DNA of 38,688 bases from Bacteroidota bacterium (lineage in GTDB: Bacteria; Bacteroidota; Bacteroidia; Chitinophagales; UBA8649), in assembly GCA_002862745.1 (NCBI GenBank), contig PKDX01000014.1:1-38688 (forward strand), given 5' to 3'. Shown one piece after another: positions 1,823-32,300 of this stretch. The notes under the pieces were generated by a model. It was not told where the DNA came from. It searched no databases and worked only from the letters and a program-made list of their open reading frames with translations. Both the position numbers and the translations under genes were made by a program. Position 1 is the stretch's first letter. The number at the start of each line of letters is the position of its first letter.

Positions 1823-4159
1823 ATGAAAAAACTATTAACTCTATTGTTTGGCGCTTTTGCTGTAGCAAGTGTTCAAGCCCAAACGGTATTCTACTCAGAA
1901 AACTTTAATTCGGGAACTATAAACTCCGCACCAAATGGATTTACAGTAGTTAATAATGACGCTTGCGCAAACAACGATCCAATCTCTTTTAGCAATGGTA
2001 GTTGGGTTGTATATGTTCCTCCTGGAAGCACAGATACTTGTGCCGCTGCGGAATCATGGTCTGGTGCCTCAACTCCTAGTTGTACCGTTGATGATTGGTT
2101 GATTACTCCAGCAATTGATTTGTCGGCTGCAACACTCCCTAAGCTCAAATTTAGGGCACAATCTGCCCAAGGAGTGGGTGCAGTAGATGCTAATGGAAAT
2201 CCCGCTGAATTCCCGGAGAGTTATGATATTTTGATTTCTACCACCGGGAACAATGCTCCTGCAGATTTCACAAATACTGCTCTATCAATAGCGGCAGAAT
2301 TTGATGCTTGGACTCAACGCGAAGCTGATTTATCAGCTTATGCGGGTCAGACTATATATATTGCCTTTCGCTTAACCTCAACGGACGCAGTGAGGCTTTA
2401 TATTGACGACCTCTCAGTTGAAGAGGCTGATCCTTTTGACCTTCAATTGGTTTCATTCCAATCGGATGCAACTCCTCAGGTTACAGCTTTAAATGCCAAC
2501 ACGAATTATGCAGTTCTTGACTATTCAGGAACAAGTTTGTTTAGTGCATCTGTCACGGTGGAAAACACCGGTCAAAATCCAGTGGACTCAGTATCTGTAA
2601 ACTACTTTATAGTTGACGATATTAATGCGCCAACGGCTGGTTCGACTGTAACAAAAGATTTTGCTCTAAGTCCCTCGCTAGCTGTGGGTGCGCAGGCTAC
2701 GTTAACTTTAGATCCTGTCGGTCTAGATACTCTATTTCCAACTCTAGCTACTAATCAAGCGCTAGATATATATATCGAGTTAGACTCCACACAATTTAAC
2801 CCATCGGTTACAGAGGCTGATGCTTTCTTTTCATTTTTGATTAATCCTAGGGAGGCTTACACGATACCATATTCTTCATCGTTTGAATGGGTTACAGGGA
2901 CCTCGCTTTCTTTTGAACATGCTGATTGGGGTTGGAAATTTATAGATGCTAATGCAGATGGCGATGGCAGCTATGTTGCTGGATTTTCAAACTTTGCAAG
3001 TTATGATGGTGATTATCACGTATTCTCTTCTTTAGTTATTCCAAACTCGCTGACGACTGGAGATGCGGGTGATTATTTTGAAACGCCTGAACTTTCTTTA
3101 GCGTCAGGAGATTATGTTGTTAGCCTGTATGGCAAGCCTCTTGGAAGTCAAGGCAGTGTGGTTACAGGTTCAATGACAGTTGAACTTGTGAGTGGATCAG
3201 GAAATACCACCAATATTGGAACTTTTACAACAGGTCAAGATACTTTGAACTGGAATCTTAATTCAGGAGTAGTTACTGTTCCATCTAATGCAAATGATTG
3301 GAAAATTAGATTTACAAATCCAGGCGGAGGGTTTGGTAGTTGGGACCTGATGACACTTAGTCAACTCTCTGCACCTGTTGCTTCTGGGGCAATTACAGGA
3401 ACCGATGAGATAAACCCGTTTGTTGAGTACTGCGACGGAAATGTTATTCTTTCGAATAGTTCAACGGCTAATGGTGGAACGTGTACAGTAGATTGGGGTG
3501 ATGGAAGTGCAACAGCTACTATCGCTTCTGGTGCTTCATTACAGCACAACTATGCTTCTAACGGAACGTATACTGTAACATTAACAGCTACTAATCCTGC
3601 AGGAAATGATCAAGTAACGTTTGACATCCTTGTAACGGATCCTCCTGCTCTTGATGCATCATTTATTATTGTTGATCAAGGAAATGGTAATGTGTCGATC
3701 ACTCTTGAGAATTCATTCCCATGTGGTGGTGCGCAAACTACCGTAAACTGGGGTGATGGTACATCAAACAACTTGACAAGCCACACGTACACGGCTGACG
3801 GTGACTACACGATTACGGTAACGATTCAAACAGCTACTGATATTGCACAGTCTACAGGATCAGTAACAATCACAGGGTTAGGCACAGCTATTGGTGAGCT
3901 AAGCCTTGAAGATGCTATGACTGTAATACCTTCTCCAGCAGTAAGCGATGTAAATGTATCCTTCAGCTTATTCAGTGCTCAGGATGTAACAATGACGATT
4001 TCAACGATTGAAGGTCGCATTGTAGAATCAAGAATCATTGAGTCGGCGAAGACAGTTAACGAGGCCTTTGATGTTCGAAGCCTTGATAACGGAATCTACA
4101 TGATTAATGTATCTACAGAAACAGGCTCAACAAACGCTTCGTTTGTAGTATCGCACTAA
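1823..4159 (+). CDS. Secreted T9SS cargo protein with choice-of-anchor-J-like and two PKD domains
   Basis: A 778-residue exported protein. The ATG at 1823 starts a clean signal peptide (MKKLLTLLFGAFAVASVQAQ); the frame is open back to 1772, but that extension would bury the signal and overlap the promoter. After the signal comes a segment with FYSENFNSGTINSAPNGFTV and DDWLITPAIDLS (about residues 20-200), typical of 'choice-of-anchor J'/cleaved-adhesin jelly-roll domains. Two PKD-like beta domains follow at about 520-608 and 609-690, each with a WGDG motif. The C-terminal 85 residues (VIPSPAVSDVNVSFSL ... LDNGIYMINV) are a type A T9SS sorting domain, which directs export across the outer membrane and is normally cleaved. 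No catalytic motif is seen; an adhesin or carbohydrate-binding role is likely. A strong terminator follows. Confidence 0.85.
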   Translation: MKKLLTLLFGAFAVASVQAQTVFYSENFNSGTINSAPNGFTVVNNDACANNDPISFSNGSWVVYVPPGSTDTCAAAESWSGASTPSCTVDDWLITPAIDLSAATLPKLKFRAQSAQGVGAVDANGNPAEFPESYDILISTTGNNAPADFTNTALSIAAEFDAWTQREADLSAYAGQTIYIAFRLTSTDAVRLYIDDLSVEEADPFDLQLVSFQSDATPQVTALNANTNYAVLDYSGTSLFSASVTVENTGQNPVDSVSVNYFIVDDINAPTAGSTVTKDFALSPSLAVGAQATLTLDPVGLDTLFPTLATNQALDIYIELDSTQFNPSVTEADAFFSFLINPREAYTIPYSSSFEWVTGTSLSFEHADWGWKFIDANADGDGSYVAGFSNFASYDGDYHVFSSLVIPNSLTTGDAGDYFETPELSLASGDYVVSLYGKPLGSQGSVVTGSMTVELVSGSGNTTNIGTFTTGQDTLNWNLNSGVVTVPSNANDWKIRFTNPGGGFGSWDLMTLSQLSAPVASGAITGTDEINPFVEYCDGNVILSNSSTANGGTCTVDWGDGSATATIASGASLQHNYASNGTYTVTLTATNPAGNDQVTFDILVTDPPALDASFIIVDQGNGNVSITLENSFPCGGAQTTVNWGDGTSNNLTSHTYTADGDYTITVTIQTATDIAQSTGSVTITGLGTAIGELSLEDAMTVIPSPAVSDVNVSFSLFSAQDVTMTISTIEGRIVESRIIESAKTVNEAFDVRSLDNGIYMINVSTETGSTNASFVVSH

Positions 4160-15612: not shown

Positions 15613-17265
15613 GTGGTACTCGAAGGGAGTCGAATTAAAACATTAACTACACTTGAGCTTAAGGAGGGATTCGGGAGAAATTTCTATTCGGACCTTTCCC
15701 TAGCATCAAAGTACCTCGATGGTATTCTTGAACAACTCAAGGACCCCAAGGATGCTTTCACGATTTCTGAACTTCGGTATAACGAAGCATCCTATTATAT
15801 GATGGCCTTTGATTTTAAGGCGTCGAACAAGGCTTCTCTTCTGGCTCTAGAATACGCTATTAAGGATGGGGACAAGGAAATGATAGGGATGTGTTATGGC
15901 CTGCGAGGCAGTCTCTTGCGTTATCTCAATTTAGTAGGCCTTTCCATTTCTTCCTATAATCAGAGCTTGGCTTATGCTCAATCCCACCGCAGAAAGGCCT
16001 CTTCGTTAAATGGCTTAGGCGTGGTTTGGACCGTTTTGGGCGATCATAATAAAGCAGAGGAAAAGTATAAGGCGACACTTGACATCCTGGAGAAGAATGG
16101 TGAAGAGTGGAGTCCTTACTACATTTTATGTGCCTTTAATCTTGCTCACCATTACTTAGCTCAAGGGCAGGGCACATCCTTTGCTGAAAAGGTAAGGCAG
16201 CATTACATAGAGATGATAAACCTTGACGCATCGAACATTCACACCTTTGCGCGATTCTATCATTTATTGGCTAAAATCTGCATGCATAATGAAGCGTGGC
16301 AGGATGCAATTACGTATGCTAAAAGCGCGCTGTATTTGATAGAGGAAGGCAATATGCCATGGGATAATACAAGGTTTAGGCTGCTTATGGGTAAGGCTGC
16401 TATGGCATTGGGCGATGTTGAATTTGTACAAAAGACATTGGCGCCGGTGCATGGGCGTCAGGAAACAGCCCTACCACACTTTCACTTAGACTACCTAAAA
16501 CTTTCCATGTATTGTGGTTTTTCTGAAGGAGAAATTTCAGCGCGATTTAGCCAAGCCAAGCATAGGTTGCAGTTGATTCAAAGTGAAGTCTTAGAAACAA
16601 GTAAAGCCTTACTTATGGACTTATCTGCTCCAAGCCAGAGTAAGTCTACTGCCTTTAAAAAGTCTAAAGACCTTAAAGTCAATGTTTCCTTTCTAGATAC
16701 ACACTTTTTAAGTAATGCCCTAGCTTCGGTGCAGCATTACATTTTGAAGTCAGACTCCATTACTGGAGGAATTTATGTAGGTCAATTTAGTGAGTATATC
16801 CGTCAACTGATGTATGCCGCAAGGGATGCCGAGATTTATGTAGAGCAGGAGATCGCCCTGATTGAGGCCTATCTCAAGCTGGAGGCACAGCGCCTTGGCT
16901 TTACCTACAAGATTCATATCAAAGACGAACAGGAGAGTTTTTCCACACGGTATATCCCTAGTCTAATTGTTCATCCCATTGTAGAGAATGCGATTAAGCA
17001 TGCGATGGGTCCCAATGGAGGAAGTCATATTGATGTGCACTTTAGAAGCTGCAATGATCGTTCACTTTATGTACATGTTGTAGATAATGGTCCTGGCCTA
17101 AGTAAGCTCATTTTGCAAATCTACGATCAGAGCCGTGGAGTAGGCAATGAGCTGATTCGGGAAAGAATACGAATCTATGAGGAGCATGGCTCTTGGAATA
17201 TATCCTTACACCGAAGAGAACTTGAACAAGGACTACACGTAACCTTCAACTTTAACAAATCCTAA
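15613..17265 (+). CDS. Cytosolic TPR sensor kinase of the LytS/YehU type
   Basis: A 550-residue protein without signal peptide or membrane segment. The first 320 residues or so are helical repeats of TPR character (for example KASSLNGLGVVWTVLGDHNK then AEEKYKATLDIL). The kinase part has the His_kinase box FLDTHFLSNALASVQHYIL, where the phospho-accepting histidine is near residue 364, followed by EIALIEAYLKLEAQRLGFTY and an ATPase domain with VHPIVENAIKHAM (about 456) and VVDNGPGL (490). The usual LytS sequence is INPHFLFNSL; here the N-P pair before His is replaced by D-T. It is followed after 7 bases by the LytTR regulator, so the two form a two-component pair. The start is a GTG; no in-frame ATG exists upstream before a stop. 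Stimulus unknown; TPRs suggest binding of a peptide or protein. Confidence 0.82.
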   Translation: MVLEGSRIKTLTTLELKEGFGRNFYSDLSLASKYLDGILEQLKDPKDAFTISELRYNEASYYMMAFDFKASNKASLLALEYAIKDGDKEMIGMCYGLRGSLLRYLNLVGLSISSYNQSLAYAQSHRRKASSLNGLGVVWTVLGDHNKAEEKYKATLDILEKNGEEWSPYYILCAFNLAHHYLAQGQGTSFAEKVRQHYIEMINLDASNIHTFARFYHLLAKICMHNEAWQDAITYAKSALYLIEEGNMPWDNTRFRLLMGKAAMALGDVEFVQKTLAPVHGRQETALPHFHLDYLKLSMYCGFSEGEISARFSQAKHRLQLIQSEVLETSKALLMDLSAPSQSKSTAFKKSKDLKVNVSFLDTHFLSNALASVQHYILKSDSITGGIYVGQFSEYIRQLMYAARDAEIYVEQEIALIEAYLKLEAQRLGFTYKIHIKDEQESFSTRYIPSLIVHPIVENAIKHAMGPNGGSHIDVHFRSCNDRSLYVHVVDNGPGLSKLILQIYDQSRGVGNELIRERIRIYEEHGSWNISLHRRELEQGLHVTFNFNKS

Positions 17266-17272
17266 ATCCATC

Positions 17273-17983
17273 TTGGAAGAGTGCTTAAAAATATTAGTTG
17301 TTGAAGATTCAATAGAAGCTGCAGAGTCCTTGGAGATCTTATCAAAAGTAGTTGATGAAGATATCCAGTTTGTCTATCATGCCATGTCGATTCGAGAGGC
17401 CCTCCAAGAAATACCCAAGCAGTCGTTCAATGTGCTTGTTCTTGATGTTACCCTCCCGGATGGATCTGGGTTTGATTTGTTAGAGCAATTAGGTCCTATA
17501 TCCTATCCAGTAATCATCATGACAGGTGATGATACATCGGCCATCAAGGCCATTAGACATCGAGTTTTTGACTATTGGGTAAAGCCAGTAAAAATTGAAG
17601 ATTTAAAGCAAACTTATCATAAGCTTAATGACTACCACTTTTTGGACCCAATGAAGGGAAAGCTCTTAGTCAAGCATAAAGGGGTAAGTGAAATCATTCC
17701 ATTCCAAGATATCCTTTACGTCAAAGCGGAAAGCAATTATGCTAGAATCATATTGAATTCAGGCAGAGACATTCTGGTGGTTCGGACACTTAAGTCCATT
17801 GAAGAAAGCCTCCCAATTCATGCATTTTTCCGCCCGCACAATAGCTATATTATTGCAACAGCGGCAATCAAAAAGTTTCATTCCGCTGAGTCAAAGGTAG
17901 AGCTTGCTAAAGAAGTAAAAATCCCCGTTAGCCGAAGTAGAAAGAAGGCCCTCCTCGAGGTTTTTAGTAGACTAAAGAGTTAG
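17273..17983 (+). CDS. LytTR-family response regulator
   Basis: A 236-residue regulator with an N-terminal receiver domain (KILVVEDSIEAAESL; phospho-acceptor Asp in VLVLDVTLPDGSG near residue 58; lysine in DYWVKPVK near 104) and a C-terminal LytTR DNA-binding domain (ILYVKAESNYARIILNSG, VVRTLKSIEESLP, FFRPHNSYIIA, about 140-235). LytTR proteins bind pairs of short direct repeats and activate transcription. The frame is open into the kinase gene and has no ATG near the expected N-terminus, so TTG at 17273 is the best start, 7 bases after the kinase stop. Its stop codon overlaps the minus-strand repeat-protein gene by four bases (TTAG). Targets are unknown; adjacent small peptide genes are natural candidates. 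Confidence 0.85.
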   Translation: MEECLKILVVEDSIEAAESLEILSKVVDEDIQFVYHAMSIREALQEIPKQSFNVLVLDVTLPDGSGFDLLEQLGPISYPVIIMTGDDTSAIKAIRHRVFDYWVKPVKIEDLKQTYHKLNDYHFLDPMKGKLLVKHKGVSEIIPFQDILYVKAESNYARIILNSGRDILVVRTLKSIEESLPIHAFFRPHNSYIIATAAIKKFHSAESKVELAKEVKIPVSRSRKKALLEVFSRLKS

Positions 17984-18342
17984 CAGCCTTCTCCATAGTC
18001 GACGTACTTGATGGTAAAGTCCTCTCCGTAGTCGACAAATTTGACCGAGTAGTCTTCTCCGTACTCGACAAACTTCCATAGTCCTTCATTATCTTCTCCG
18101 TAATCGACGGTTTTTACAGCAAGATCCTCACCATAGTCCACTATTTTAACTTGATAGTCCTCTCCGTAGTCTACGACTTTTATTTCACCATAGACATGGC
18201 AGTGCGAGGGAAGTACAGATGCTTCCTTTACTTCCTTTGGAGCAGCGTCGTTATCGCTTGGGGAGTTCATAAAGGCATAGGTAGAAAGGCTAATACTTCC
18301 TAACGCAAGGATACCCACGGCATAGATGATTCTTTTTTTCAT
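17980..18342 (-). CDS. Small secreted VDYGED-repeat protein, probable 7(1) septoil knot domain
   Basis: A 120-residue protein with signal peptide (MKKRIIYAVGILALGSISLS) and a spacer of about 25 residues. The rest is a cap (CHVYGE) plus six 11-residue repeats whose core is VDYGED: KVVDYGED, KIVDYGED, KTVDYGED, KFVEYGED, KFVDYGED and KYVDYGEG, with a three-residue insert between the third and fourth. One Cys lies just before the first unit and one ends the protein, so a disulfide could close the array. The pattern matches my memory of the '7(1) septoil knot' family of small Bacteroidota proteins predicted to form a seven-crossing knot; this was not tested. Function unknown. It lies convergent to the LytTR regulator (four-base overlap) and divergent from a TPR kinase, with a perfect palindrome in that promoter region. 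Confidence 0.75.
   Translation of the reverse strand: MKKRIIYAVGILALGSISLSTYAFMNSPSDNDAAPKEVKEASVLPSHCHVYGEIKVVDYGEDYQVKIVDYGEDLAVKTVDYGEDNEGLWKFVEYGEDYSVKFVDYGEDFTIKYVDYGEGC
17993..18180 (-). repeat. 33-bp tandem coding repeats (VDYGED units)
   Basis: Copies of a YGE-V-DY coding block (plus-strand pattern tcCgtAgTCgAC) begin near 17993, 18026, 18059, 18101, 18134 and 18167. Spacing is 33, 33, 42, 33 and 33 bases, always a multiple of three. Copies differ mainly at third positions, so the protein repeat is selected rather than recently duplicated. Confidence 0.8.
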
Positions 18343-18390: not shown

Positions 18391-18403
18391 TAGAATAATT
18401 CTA
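18391..18403. promoter_or_regulatory. 13-base perfect palindrome TAGAAT-A-ATTCTA
   Basis: A perfect palindrome around a central A, in the 123-bp divergent region between the VDYGED-repeat gene and the TPR/HisKA kinase gene. It lies about 28 bases upstream of the candidate -7 box for the minus-strand gene, a suitable place for an operator. No other copy was noticed in nearby intergenic regions. Confidence 0.35.
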
Positions 18404-18465
18404 GCGAATAGTGTAACGAATGTCAAGAATTTACGTATATCCTTTTTTAATCATGTGTTTGATTT

Positions 18466-20247
18466 ATGGCAAATGTGCTGAACATCCATAGTAATAGTGC
18501 GTTACTCGATCGCTTACGAGACGAGGTAGAGGCGATTATTGTCGCAGATCAAGTAGAGGGGCTTAAAAAAAGCAAAGCCTACCATAGAGCAGCCGAAAAG
18601 GCAGCTGATGCCATGCATCAAGCTCTTGCTCTAAAGTATATTGCCTTTTGTTTCTTTCATAAACGTGAGCTGGACAAAGCACTGTCATTTGGAAACAGTG
18701 CAAAGGAAGTGGCTCATCAGAATGGCTTACCTGGGATAGTTCAATCTATGTTGAGTTTTACAGGAATGGTTTTACGTCACCTTGGCCGGATAGAGGAGAG
18801 TATACAAATTTTAACAGAGGCCGTATCGTATCCCGGTGATTCTCCTGAAGTTCTAGCGGGTTCTTACAACAATTTGGCAGTCATATACGATACAAAAGAA
18901 GAGTTTGACAAAGCTTTAAAGTTTTATAAGAAGGCTTTACAACACATGGAAGACAAAGCCTCCCCAAACTATCCATTCATCTTAGGAAATATTGGTAGAT
19001 GCCTGTTGAGCTTAAAAGATTACAACGAATCTAAGATAATGCTCGATGAGTCATTGTTGCTTAGTCAAAAGTGTAACAATACAATTGCTGAATCAAGAAG
19101 TCATCAATATTTAGGGCTTTATCATTTTGAACTAAAAGAATTTGCTCATTGCAGATCTCATTTGGAAGAAGCTCTTAGGTTGGTAAACAAAGCTGGACAC
19201 ATTATTGATAAACTGAGGATCTCTTTTCATTTGTCACATGTTTATGAGCATACAGACCAAATTGCCCAAGCGGAGGAGTTGATAAAGGAATCATTAGAAG
19301 TCTGTAAGGAGCTTCAACCAATTCATAAAGAGTTAGTCATTAAAAGAGCTCTTGACTTTTATCAAAACCAGGGGAAGCCTATTATTGCCCTAGGTCACGC
19401 CAAAGACTTGTTAGAAATCGTAGGAGCTCGAGAAATTGATAAGCGTGAACGCCGAATTTCTGAACTTCAAATGCAATTTGAATCCAAGGAAAAAGATCGG
19501 GAGATCGAAACGCTGCAACGTGAGCGCAACCATCAAGAAGCTCTACTAGCCCAAGCCCGCCTAACCGAAGAAGCCAATATTAAGTTAGAAAAAGCCAACG
19601 AAGAGTTGCGCCAATTTACCTACGCCGTATCTCATGATTTGAAAGAGCCCATCCGACAGGTAAAAAACTATGCCCAAATAGCATTAATGCCAATCAAGGA
19701 TAAACTTTCACCTAAAGAGGCAACGATGGTGCAGTTTGTCTTAGACGGTTCCCATCGTGCCCACCAAATGATTGACGATTTGTATTCCTTTGCTACTGTA
19801 GGCGAAGGGGAACAGCAAAAAGAAGAAATCAGTCTTCTGAAACTTGCTCAAGATAGCGTAGTAGACTTGGCAGATAAGATAAAGGCATCTGGAGCCGAAA
19901 TAATTCTAAAAGTGTTGCCCACAGTTAGTGGACATGAGAGTATGCTTCGTCAACTCTTTTTAAACCTTATATCGAATGCGCTCAAGTTTGCGCATCCTGA
20001 TCGAAAGTTGAGGATAACGATAGATACAGATGCAGATGGTGCGGTAGTAATTGCCGACAACGGGCAGGGTATACCTGTGGAAGCCCAAAACAAAATATTC
20101 TCTTTATTCCAGCAAGTCGACCGGCAAAAAGAGGGCAGTGGAATAGGGCTAGCCCTATGCGCAAAGATTATGCAAAAGCATAATGGACAAATCGCTGTGA
20201 CCAGTAACGGCCACAGCGGCACATCTTTTAGATTAATTTTTTCTTAG
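18466..20247 (+). CDS. Cytosolic TPR sensor histidine kinase (HisKA type)
   Basis: A 593-residue protein without membrane segments. Residues 30-300 or so are TPR repeats (AGSYNNLAVIYDTKEEFDKA, then LKFYKKALQHMED; SRSHQYLGLYHFELKEFAHC). A coiled coil follows (about 325-385, SELQMQFESKEKDREIETLQ), then the HisKA box LRQFTYAVSHDLKEPIRQVK with His near residue 390. The ATPase domain contains LFLNLISNALKFAHP, VIADNGQGIPVEAQNKIFSL and GSGIGLALCAKIMQKHNG. Such soluble TPR kinases in Bacteroidota usually act through separate regulators; none is encoded directly beside it except the LytTR gene further upstream. Its upstream region is shared with the VDYGED-repeat gene, and its stop codon overlaps the stop of the GG-leader peptide gene on the other strand (TTAG). 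Confidence 0.87.
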   Translation: MANVLNIHSNSALLDRLRDEVEAIIVADQVEGLKKSKAYHRAAEKAADAMHQALALKYIAFCFFHKRELDKALSFGNSAKEVAHQNGLPGIVQSMLSFTGMVLRHLGRIEESIQILTEAVSYPGDSPEVLAGSYNNLAVIYDTKEEFDKALKFYKKALQHMEDKASPNYPFILGNIGRCLLSLKDYNESKIMLDESLLLSQKCNNTIAESRSHQYLGLYHFELKEFAHCRSHLEEALRLVNKAGHIIDKLRISFHLSHVYEHTDQIAQAEELIKESLEVCKELQPIHKELVIKRALDFYQNQGKPIIALGHAKDLLEIVGAREIDKRERRISELQMQFESKEKDREIETLQRERNHQEALLAQARLTEEANIKLEKANEELRQFTYAVSHDLKEPIRQVKNYAQIALMPIKDKLSPKEATMVQFVLDGSHRAHQMIDDLYSFATVGEGEQQKEEISLLKLAQDSVVDLADKIKASGAEIILKVLPTVSGHESMLRQLFLNLISNALKFAHPDRKLRITIDTDADGAVVIADNGQGIPVEAQNKIFSLFQQVDRQKEGSGIGLALCAKIMQKHNGQIAVTSNGHSGTSFRLIFS

Positions 20248-20426
20248 CGTGTAGCAAAAGAATTGAAAGCCAATTCCGGCTGGTCAAAGGCTTCAATTGT
20301 AACTTTTGATGCTTTAACCTTGGTCATTTTAACTGAAGGTTGGTCAAAGGCCTCAATTGTAGTTTTACCTCCTTTTAAAGCTTTTGACGCTTGATCGTTT
20401 AACGGAATGAATGTTTTCTTTTTCAT
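20244..20426 (-). CDS. 60-residue peptide with GG-type leader and two TIEAFDQP repeats
   Basis: The protein begins MKKKTFIPLNDQASKALKGG, which looks like a short charged leader ending in a double glycine, the cleavage site of peptides exported by peptidase-containing ABC transporters or used as RiPP precursors. The rest is two 20-residue repeats, KTTIEAFDQPSVK... and KVTIEAFDQPELA.... The repeated blocks keep protein identity while differing at synonymous positions, which supports real coding. I do not recognise the family. No maturation enzyme or transporter is encoded nearby. It is preceded by an AT-rich region with a TATATTTA -7-like element (read on the minus strand). It faces the TPR/HisKA kinase gene tail to tail with a four-base overlap. 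A small non-exported protein is the alternative. Confidence 0.6.
   Translation of the reverse strand: MKKKTFIPLNDQASKALKGGKTTIEAFDQPSVKMTKVKASKVTIEAFDQPELAFNSFATR
20281..20366 (-). repeat. Two coding direct repeats with 60-bp period
   Basis: The blocks at 20281-20306 and 20341-20366 start tggtcaaaggcttcaattgt and tggtcaaaggcctcaattgt, differing by one base over the first 20. They encode the TIEAFDQP blocks of the minus-strand peptide. Confidence 0.8.
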
Positions 20427-29356: not shown

Positions 29357-32300
29357 GTGCAAAGAGAGGAATTGATACAACAATATCAGCAGTCATCCAT
29401 GCTGCAAGATGTGGTTTCCCATTTAACCGAGGGAGACAAGGGAAGTGCAATCCACCTTAATGATGTGCATGGTTCTTCTTTAGCCTTTATCATTGCGGCG
29501 TCTTATCAGTTGCATAAAGGAAACCATATTGTCCTCTGTCGAGATCGTGAGGAGGCGGCGTTTTTAATGCAGGATTTACAGTTTGTGCTTCCTAAAAAAG
29601 AGATTTACAGCTTTCCCTCCTCCTTTAAACAGTTAGGTCAAATTCACCAATCGGACTCAGGGAACATCCAAATGCGGACAGAGGCCATCACTCAGTTAAC
29701 GAGTAATGCCATTCAGTCCATGTTGATTGTTTCGTATCCGGATGCCCTACTCGAGCGGGTCGTTAAAAAATCAGTGCTCAAAGAGACGCGTCTGGATATT
29801 GAAGTAGGGGAGACCTTTGACATTGATTTCATGTTAGAGTTGCTTATTACGTATAATTTTGAGCGCGTCAATTTTGTATATGAGCCCGGTCAATTTTCTA
29901 TTCGCGGTGACATCATTGACATTTACTCCTTTGCGAACGCGAACCCTTATCGAATAGAAGTTTTTGATAACGAGGTTGAGAGTATTCGACTTTTTGATCC
30001 TGTGAGTCAGCGATCAGAAAAAAAGGTCCTTCGGGTTTCCATTTTGCCCAATGGTCAACAAAACTTCACAGTTGAGGAGCAAGTCTCTCTTTTCCAGGCG
30101 ATTCCTAGTAACACCACATGTTGGATTAATGATGTGGCCATGTGTTTGGAGACCGTAGACGAGGGTATGGCAAAAGCTATTGCTTGCTACGAAAAACTTG
30201 ATTTTGATGAGGAGGATTTTGATGGGGAGGATAGCATTCGCGTCCATCCTGAAAAGCGTTTTGAAACTTCTCCGCGCATCAAAGGATACCTTGAAGATAT
30301 TCACCTTGTTGAGTGGGGCAACAAGATCTATTCAAAGGCTATGGAGGTCTTCGACTTTGGCATTGACCCTCAACCTGTATTTAATCGAAATGTAGAGTTG
30401 CTGGTAGAGGATCTGCAGGCCAAAAAGGAGGCTGGGTATGAACTAATCTTGGCCACAGAACATGCCAAGCACTACAACCGGGTACAGGGTATATTACAAG
30501 ATGTCGAGGCGAATATCACCATGCATCCGCTCAATTTGGACCTGCATGGGGGCTTTGTAGATAATCAAAACAAGATTCTTGTATACACAGACCATCAGAT
30601 CTTTAGTCGCTACCATAAGGCAAACATTCGAAAAAATCGAAGTAGTAGTCGCGCACAACTGATGAAAACACTCAAAGAGTGGAAGCCAGGAGACTATGTT
30701 GTCCATATCGACCATGGTATTGGAGTGTATTCAGGATTGGAAAAGCTTGATATTGCTGGTCGTGTGCAGGAGTCCATTCGAATCATATATCAAAACAACG
30801 ATTTGCTCTATGTCAGTATTAATGCACTTCATAAAATTTCAAAGTATTCAGGCAAGGATGGTAAGAAACCCAAAATTCATCGACTAGGGTCAGATGCTTG
30901 GGCGAAAACCAAAACCAAAACCAAAAAGAAAATCAAGCAGGTTGCCTATGACTTAATCAAGTTGTACGCTCAGCGAAAAACCCAAAAAGGCTTTGCCTTT
31001 TCACCGGATACTTACTTACAGCATGAGTTGGAAGCCTCCTTTTTCTATCAGGATACTCCCGATCAAGAAAAAACAAGCCTTGAGGTAAAAAAGGACATGG
31101 AGAGCGATGTGCCCATGGATCGCTTATTATGCGGTGACGTAGGCTTTGGTAAAACAGAAGTAGCCATACGGGCAGCCTTTAAGGCGGTTACCGACAACAA
31201 ACAGGTCGCCATTCTTGTGCCCACTACCATTTTGGCCGCACAACATCACAAGACCCTCTCTGACCGACTTCGCGATTTCCCAGTGACCATTGAATATGTC
31301 AATCGCTTTCGCAGTGCGGCAGAGAAAAAGGCGATTTATGAAAAACTTGCCCAAGGTAAAATTGACATCTGTATAGGCACTCATTCCTTAGTGGGTAAAG
31401 CGGTGCAATGGAAGGATCTTGGACTTCTTATAGTCGATGAGGAACAAAAGTTTGGCGTCGGCGTCAAGGAAAAACTTAAAACTATTAAGCTCAACGTGGA
31501 TACATTAACCTTGACGGCCACACCGATTCCACGAACTCTACAGTTCAGTCTTATGGGGGCAAGGGATTTGTCTGTGATTCGAACGCCTCCTGAAAATCGT
31601 CAACCCGTGCATACCGAAGTCCATACGTTTAGTACGGAAGTCATTGCTGATGCGATACAGTTTGAGCTGTACCGAGGGGGACAAGTCTTCTTTGTCCATA
31701 ACCGCATAAAGGACATAGAGGAAATCAAGCAAATGCTTGAACGTATGTTGAGCAATGTGCGCATTGCTGTTGGTCATGGTCAAATGGAGGGTCAAGCACT
31801 TGAGCGCGTAATGGTAGACTTTGTTGATGGTCAATACGATGTCCTCTTATCGACCAACATTATTGAAACGGGATTGGATATTCCTAATGCCAATACCATT
31901 ATCATAAATGGAGCGCATATGTTTGGCTTGTCGGATTTACACCAATTGCGTGGACGGGTAGGGCGTTCGAGTCGAAAAGCCTATTGTTATTTGTTTACCC
32001 CTCCTATATCCACGCTTTCGCAAGATGCCCGATTGCGCTTAAAGACCATTGAAGAGTTTGCTGATATCGGAAGTGGTTTTAATATCGCTATGCGTGATCT
32101 AGACATTCGTGGTGCGGGCAATCTATTGGGAGGAGAGCAGAGCGGGTTTATGAACGACTTAGGTTTTCAGACCTACCACAAAATTTTAGATGAGACCATT
32201 CAAGAGCTTAAGGCCACGGAATTTGTTGAGCTCTACAAGGCAGAAATCGCTGAAAAGAGAGAATATGTCAGGGATTGTCAGATTGATACGGATCTTCCCA

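Follow-up and report, generated by a model that had tools for sequence, protein, structure and literature searches.

A predicted secreted six-unit repeat protein from a Bacteroidota bacterium as a member of a superfamily that includes the knotted protein UU089.1 and a phage protein family

The 7_1 topology is the most complex knot found in a protein, and it has been described from one uncharacterised Ureaplasma protein, UU089.1 (Q9PR55), together with a 5_1 homologue (PMC9278004, PMC11223836). For Q9PR55, a prediction of the 7_1 knot (PMC9278004) was later borne out by a crystal structure (PMC11223836), and in its homologue P73136 the 5_1 knot is a prediction (PMC9278004). The present analysis extends this set by about 60 related domains that stem from several phyla, together with a subfamily that is recognised by neither Pfam nor NCBIfam. 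A knotted solenoid of Brevundimonas reported in PNAS in 2026 (PMC13123833) was considered and set aside, since the available part of that report describes a 3_1 knot in another fold and taxon.

Our starting point was a window of 38,688 nucleotides from a Bacteroidota bacterium, the whole stretch of DNA that was analysed, which contains on its reverse strand an open reading frame of 120 codons (17980..18342) whose product is termed P0001. The original prediction had described a secreted protein composed of a cap and six repeated units with a cysteine at each end, and this layout is borne out by the reading frame, its motifs and the location of Cys48 and Cys120, with secretion being the part that we infer from the hydrophobic N-terminus. 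Residues 1-24 (18271..18342, reverse strand as for all features of the gene) comprise a KKR sequence followed by a hydrophobic stretch with a hydropathy maximum of 2.17, which would serve as export signal or N-terminal membrane anchor and which is modelled as a helix at residues 3-25 in a full-length AF2 run of low confidence (19 sequences, pLDDT 40). The cap LPSHCHVY (residues 44-51, 18190..18213) harbours Cys48 (codon 18199-18201) and is followed by units 1 to 3, GEIKVVDYGED (52-62, 18157..18189), YQVKIVDYGED (63-73, 18124..18156) and LAVKTVDYGED (74-84, 18091..18123), which coincide with the AF2 strands E9-13, E20-24 and E31-35. After the inter-unit loop NEGLW (85-89, 18076..18090), the array continues with unit 4, LWKFVEYGED (88-97, 18052..18081, strand E45-48), unit 5, YSVKFVDYGED (98-108, 18019..18051, strand E55-59), and unit 6, which extends to the C-terminal Cys120 (FTIKYVDYGEGC, 109-120, 17983..18018). 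The V[DE]YGE[DG] motifs start at residues 57, 68, 79, 92, 103 and 114, with spacings of 11, 11, 13, 11 and 11, and the insert between units 3 and 4 thus amounts to a net gain of two residues, not three. No DNA tandem repeat was found by TRF at 17980-18342, and the codons of the six motifs differ synonymously, thus illustrating that the repeat exists only at the level of the protein. Elsewhere in the window, TRF identified short DNA tandem repeats with periods of 22 bp (29860-29901) and 15 bp (30200-30232).

Two further species of the genus retain the gene at 86% identity, and comparison of the mature domain in the three genomes yields dN values of 0.05-0.07 versus dS values of 0.76-1.1 (dN/dS of about 0.06). 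The gene is real and under strong purifying selection as a protein, and its array is not a product of chance in light of this conservation within the genus, the low dN relative to dS and the 60 distinct domains, retrieved in wider genome searches, that align with essentially no gaps. A candidate promoter of the gene (TTGACA-17-TAGAAT, 18398..18426, reverse strand) matches 11 of 12 consensus letters; as its hexamers are altered in the sister species L004, we have dropped it as a sign of a conserved regulatory region.

The relatives share a constant layout, in which a cap is followed by two sets of three units, separated by a loop whose G and W are invariant (G87 and W89 of P0001 in the alignment of 50 sequences). 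A scan of genome contigs recovered 25 of them and distinguished a VDYGED type from an SFPD type. VDYGED proteins that carry a Cys at either end were found in metagenome-assembled genomes of Bacteroidota, and SFPD-type proteins of rumen Selenomonadales combine one YGED unit with SFPD units. The distribution is patchy, with 16 positives in 398 genomes of the order and 11 in 395 of the phylum. Taken alone, P0001 matched no Pfam or NCBIfam model, and weak matches of single members, including one to an NCBIfam StxB-type model (best E 0.003), were set aside as noise. Plasmid records contained nothing for P0001 or its DUF6150 paralogue described below, and annotated phage records nothing for three query proteins; SFPD queries do match records from Leptospira and Burkholderia. 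In four cases (L032, L033, L035, L038) the knot-type domain forms the C-terminus of a larger secreted protein bearing repeated W-x(n)-W-E/K-x-W segments, of which the L032 protein is unmatched in Pfam.

A relationship to UU089.1 becomes apparent at the level of the family. When its profile was compared to the PDB, 8IWA (UU089.1/Q9PR55) was the sole significant match, with E values of 7.6e-7, 4.1e-13 and 2.6e-13 over three successively better alignments, and for alignments A2 and A3 it was the only PDB sequence match under E 10. A fragment of UU089.1 aligned to the best SFPD relative scores 154, compared to 35 +/- 6 for shuffled and 37 for reversed sequences. The pairwise score of P0001 and UU089.1 is 34 and thus like that of shuffles, and the link between the two proteins runs via the SFPD relatives and holds at family level only. 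The apparent number of units is five in UU089.1 and six in the family of P0001. Residues 49-119 of P0001 also match the PHROG family phrog_6462 of unknown function (E 2.3e-16), which was repeated in a search with the whole genome. These sequence comparisons support the assignment of P0001, as a VDYGED-type member, to a superfamily containing UU089.1/Q9PR55 and phrog_6462.

The structure of the mature domain, modelled by AF2 from an alignment of 50 relatives with signal peptides removed (pLDDT 94.2, pTM 0.80), displays six short strands, one per unit, with the insert between units 3 and 4 residing in a loop. This agrees with the original prediction, which had placed the insert at a crossing or turn of the chain, as far as its location is concerned; a peculiarity it is not, since besides its net length of two residues it is a family-wide feature defined by the invariant G and W. 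In a Foldseek search with this model, the top matches are all to Q9PR55 (E 3.6e-4 to 1.2e-3, probability 0.96-1.00), and no other structures reach significance. The superposition has a TM score of 0.37 and an rmsd of about 10 A over 64 columns, and a global fold match is thus unproven. This poor agreement would fit an alignment that is shifted by a unit, as may result from five units in UU089.1 versus six in P0001, and a different winding is also possible. A search of BFVD for related folds returned nothing significant. The low TM score, together with profile scores that are inflated by repeats and the failure of P0001 by itself to match UU089.1, could be taken to suggest an ordinary short beta solenoid without a knot, whose likeness to UU089.1 would reflect convergence of low-complexity repeats. 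We consider this unlikely, as 8IWA stands alone among PDB sequence matches (A2, A3), since UU089.1 falls to background scores once shuffled or reversed, since the model draws no beta-solenoid matches in Foldseek, and since the partnership of cap and C-terminal cysteines described below would be hard to accommodate on a linear solenoid. The proposed membership in the septoil-knot family thus finds support in the profile match to 8IWA (E 2.6e-13) and in Q9PR55 being listed first by Foldseek (TM 0.37).

At the level of profiles, the relatives match 8IWA, and the Pfam model PF19647 did not match P0001. PF19647 is listed as DUF6150, and none of the profile libraries searched uses the name '7(1) septoil knot'. 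A DUF6150 protein with 13-residue VDYESQAD units, in which three units are followed by a GLW loop and another three, is encoded in the same genome (L028, G000:C10:57159-57443), and each of the three genomes from the genus has such a protein. The comparison of DUF6150 with the profile of the P0001 family resulted in a moderate match (E 1.7e-4, probability 49), and two hybrids (L054, L055) contain one SQAD-type, DUF6150-like unit amid SFPD-type units. DUF6150 and the P0001 family are probably related, but separate families. One DUF6150 member (L103) has its loop preceded by only two units and followed by three, constituting a natural variant in unit number that might carry a simpler knot.

The distribution of cysteines, tallied in 64 domain sequences, adds a feature that had not been part of the original prediction. 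In VDYGED-type members, a Cys in the cap is always accompanied by one at the C-terminus (17/17), and in SFPD-type members by one in the inter-unit loop (28/28). Cysteines are absent from all seven members that lack a hydrophobic N-terminus; L049, L051 and L053 possess an N-terminal hydrophobic stretch, yet are devoid of Cys, and the Selenomonadales/rumen group has one. On a tree constructed with cysteines masked, each arrangement forms a cluster, which implies few independent events, and p-values for co-occurrence thus do not constitute independent evidence. The fixed pairs predict a disulfide-closed ring in exported members, and the ability of the cap to partner with either loop or C-terminus is the pattern expected of a ring that is traversed in two circuits.

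We thus envision an architecture where the chain would round a compact beta ring twice, with three short strands per circuit; the first circuit would finish at the G-x-W loop and the second at the C-terminus. The interlacing of both circuits would generate a two-strand torus knot, and outside the cytoplasm a bond between Cys48 and Cys120 would close the ring into a rigid and protease-resistant body. The conserved residues V, D, G and W look structural, and the most probable mode of action of the protein is binding within the envelope rather than catalysis. The best joint explanation of our results, to which we assign a probability of roughly 0.7, is thus that of an exported domain of the Q9PR55/phrog_6462 superfamily, which forms a disulfide-closed two-circuit ring, acts as a binder in the envelope and stands outside the pathway of the flanking kinases.

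The last part of this explanation concerns the genomic neighbourhood. The gene is located between a LytS/LytTR pair and a TPR/HisKA kinase, an arrangement that had been noted from the start and that was confirmed by domain matches. The pair consists of a LytS-like TPR/His_kinase/HATPase kinase (15613..17265, forward strand) and a response regulator with LytTR domain (17273..17983, forward strand), which is convergent with the gene of P0001 and overlaps it by 4 bp (17980-17983). On the other side, a TPR/HisKA/HATPase kinase (18466..20247, forward strand) is divergent, separated by a gap of 123 bp. From this position, P0001 had been proposed to be a ligand, output or reporter of the signalling system, for which the shared intergenic region would be suggestive, as would be the LytS-like/LytTR pair that adjoins the gene in each of the three genomes from the genus and the HisKA kinase that lies beyond it in two, with the contig of the third ending first. 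This synteny is uninformative with respect to function since flanking genes such as MsrA are equally syntenic. No similar kinases were found near the 14 VDYGED homologues outside of the genus, and in a tblastn search of all homologue loci outside the genus, with the three signalling proteins as queries, a weak HATPase match at the edge of L082 was the only hit. The neighbours are instead RecQ and an M16 peptidase, an APC permease, Dus, MsrB or urocanase, as named by eye from sequence, and kinases with TPR or LytTR domains thus recur next to homologues within the genus only. Conversely, two genomes of a sister genus contain a related LytS-like/LytTR/TPR-kinase cluster, with LytTR proteins that are 35-37% identical, and a gene of the P0001 family was not found in either. 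The proposed role in kinase signalling is thus not supported and appears very improbable. Most likely, the gene came to adjoin the kinases in this lineage and then stayed, and we judge the three signalling genes as incidental neighbours, with a genus-specific link being possible given the synteny in three genomes. With respect to other genes of the region, MsrA is found near the gene in the window and MsrB near the homologue at L009. A reading frame of 60 codons (20244-20426, reverse strand; MKKKTFIPLNDQASKALKGG...), convergent with the HisKA kinase, contains two copies of TIEAFDQP and an ALKGG motif and looks like a leader-peptide-type small protein; a copy of 67% identity is present in G053 (C19:3756-3920) and none in G027.

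A first functional lead for the family is provided by its phage-borne secreted members, which are repeatedly found among baseplate-hub genes. In a plasmid-borne prophage-like region of Leptospira weilii, the relative WP_249739392.1, which contains an export signal and the cap-loop Cys pair, is encoded in a run of tape measure, tail protein X and baseplate genes, where its reading frame and the baseplate J gene share 4 bp. This gene order is conserved in nine IMG/VR prophage contigs, and the tail modules of Leptospira prophages (L140 4911-5225; L141-L149, L156) encode a secreted relative of the SFPD type immediately ahead of baseplate J, between this gene and a W-position gene. In phages of Bacteroidota type (L152, L154, L158, host inferred), a secreted relative is inserted on the opposite strand between the baseplate-hub genes phrog_4930 and phrog_5233. 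Isolated genes for secreted proteins that run against a surrounding tail operon are typical of lysogenic conversion. Further phage-borne relatives include one upstream of a portal-like gene, which was named by eye and has no PHROG match (L151), and a Cys-free one adjoining the gene of the terminase small subunit (L057/L060). A few genes upstream of the relative in L151, a small lipoprotein-like reading frame (3345-3692) contains five CxGYGYxVxYTxRG repeats.

Two accounts of these observations have to be weighed. In the first, the domain would serve to exclude phages, as a knot located in the envelope that blocks the tail-mediated entry of DNA and that is borne by prophages and here by the chromosome. 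Such a function would resemble that of the unrelated Ltp (PMC3952083), which, as far as the accessible part of its description goes, offers a precedent, and it would account for the secreted members within tail modules, the Cys-free member beside a terminase gene and the patchy distribution in order and phylum. Less compatible with it are that no PADLOC-DB model matches P0001, that the inspected neighbours of the gene in the window (kinases, MsrA) belong to the chromosome, with no phage gene found beside it, that some members are cytoplasmic and that a Leptospira member could instead be a part of the virion or its assembly, and we thus regard phage exclusion as a tentative proposal. In the second account, the fold would be an inert scaffold that has been recruited as a structural or tail-assembly part in phages and, unrelated to this role, as a structural filler of the envelope in bacteria. 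The operon position and the 4-bp overlap with gpJ in Leptospira would be in line with such a role, as would the occurrence as C-terminal module of larger secreted W-rich repeat proteins (L032-L035, L038). The export signals of phage-borne members are unusual for virion proteins and the Bacteroidota-type phages place the gene on the strand opposite to the tail operon, and this second account appears doubtful to us as well. For P0001 itself, the leading candidate role would be to interfere with the entry of phages or to serve some other envelope function related to phages, which we propose with reservation from its phage-borne relatives in baseplate gene clusters. In a stronger version, which appears unlikely, exported members would be covalently closed torus knots, of rank 7_1 or higher in view of the six units, whose phage-borne copies in baseplate gene clusters act as blockers of entry at the envelope. 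If true, this would define the first function for the most complex protein knot family and provide a natural series of knots that differ in their closure point. The alternative Cys pairs predict where the ends of the chain meet, and together with the additional domains and the recurrent position among baseplate genes they make the function of the family concretely testable.

The described features of P0001 can finally be compared to those of known systems. As in UU089.1/Q9PR55 (PDB 8IWA, 8IWB, 8JRM), where tandem units of the V-x-S-F-P-D type are interrupted by a loop, the P0001 family consists of tandem units on both sides of a loop; in contrast to UU089.1, P0001 contains VDYGED in place of the SFPD turns and has a predicted export signal and a predicted Cys clamp. 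DUF6150 shares the order of three units, G-x-W loop and three units (alignments A3, A4), but each of its units (VDYESQAD) is longer by two residues. The same cap, six units and loop are found in phrog_6462, although in its phage members the units are of the SFPD type and the Cys pair is mostly that of cap and loop, whereas P0001 is encoded on the chromosome and would be closed between cap and C-terminus. With Ltp, the exported superinfection-exclusion lipoprotein of phage TP-J34, the relatives share, by analogy alone, the property of being phage-encoded and exported (PMC3952083), and a sequence relation to the P0001 family is not detectable. Superinfection exclusion of the Ltp kind would offer the most economical reading of the phage-borne members.
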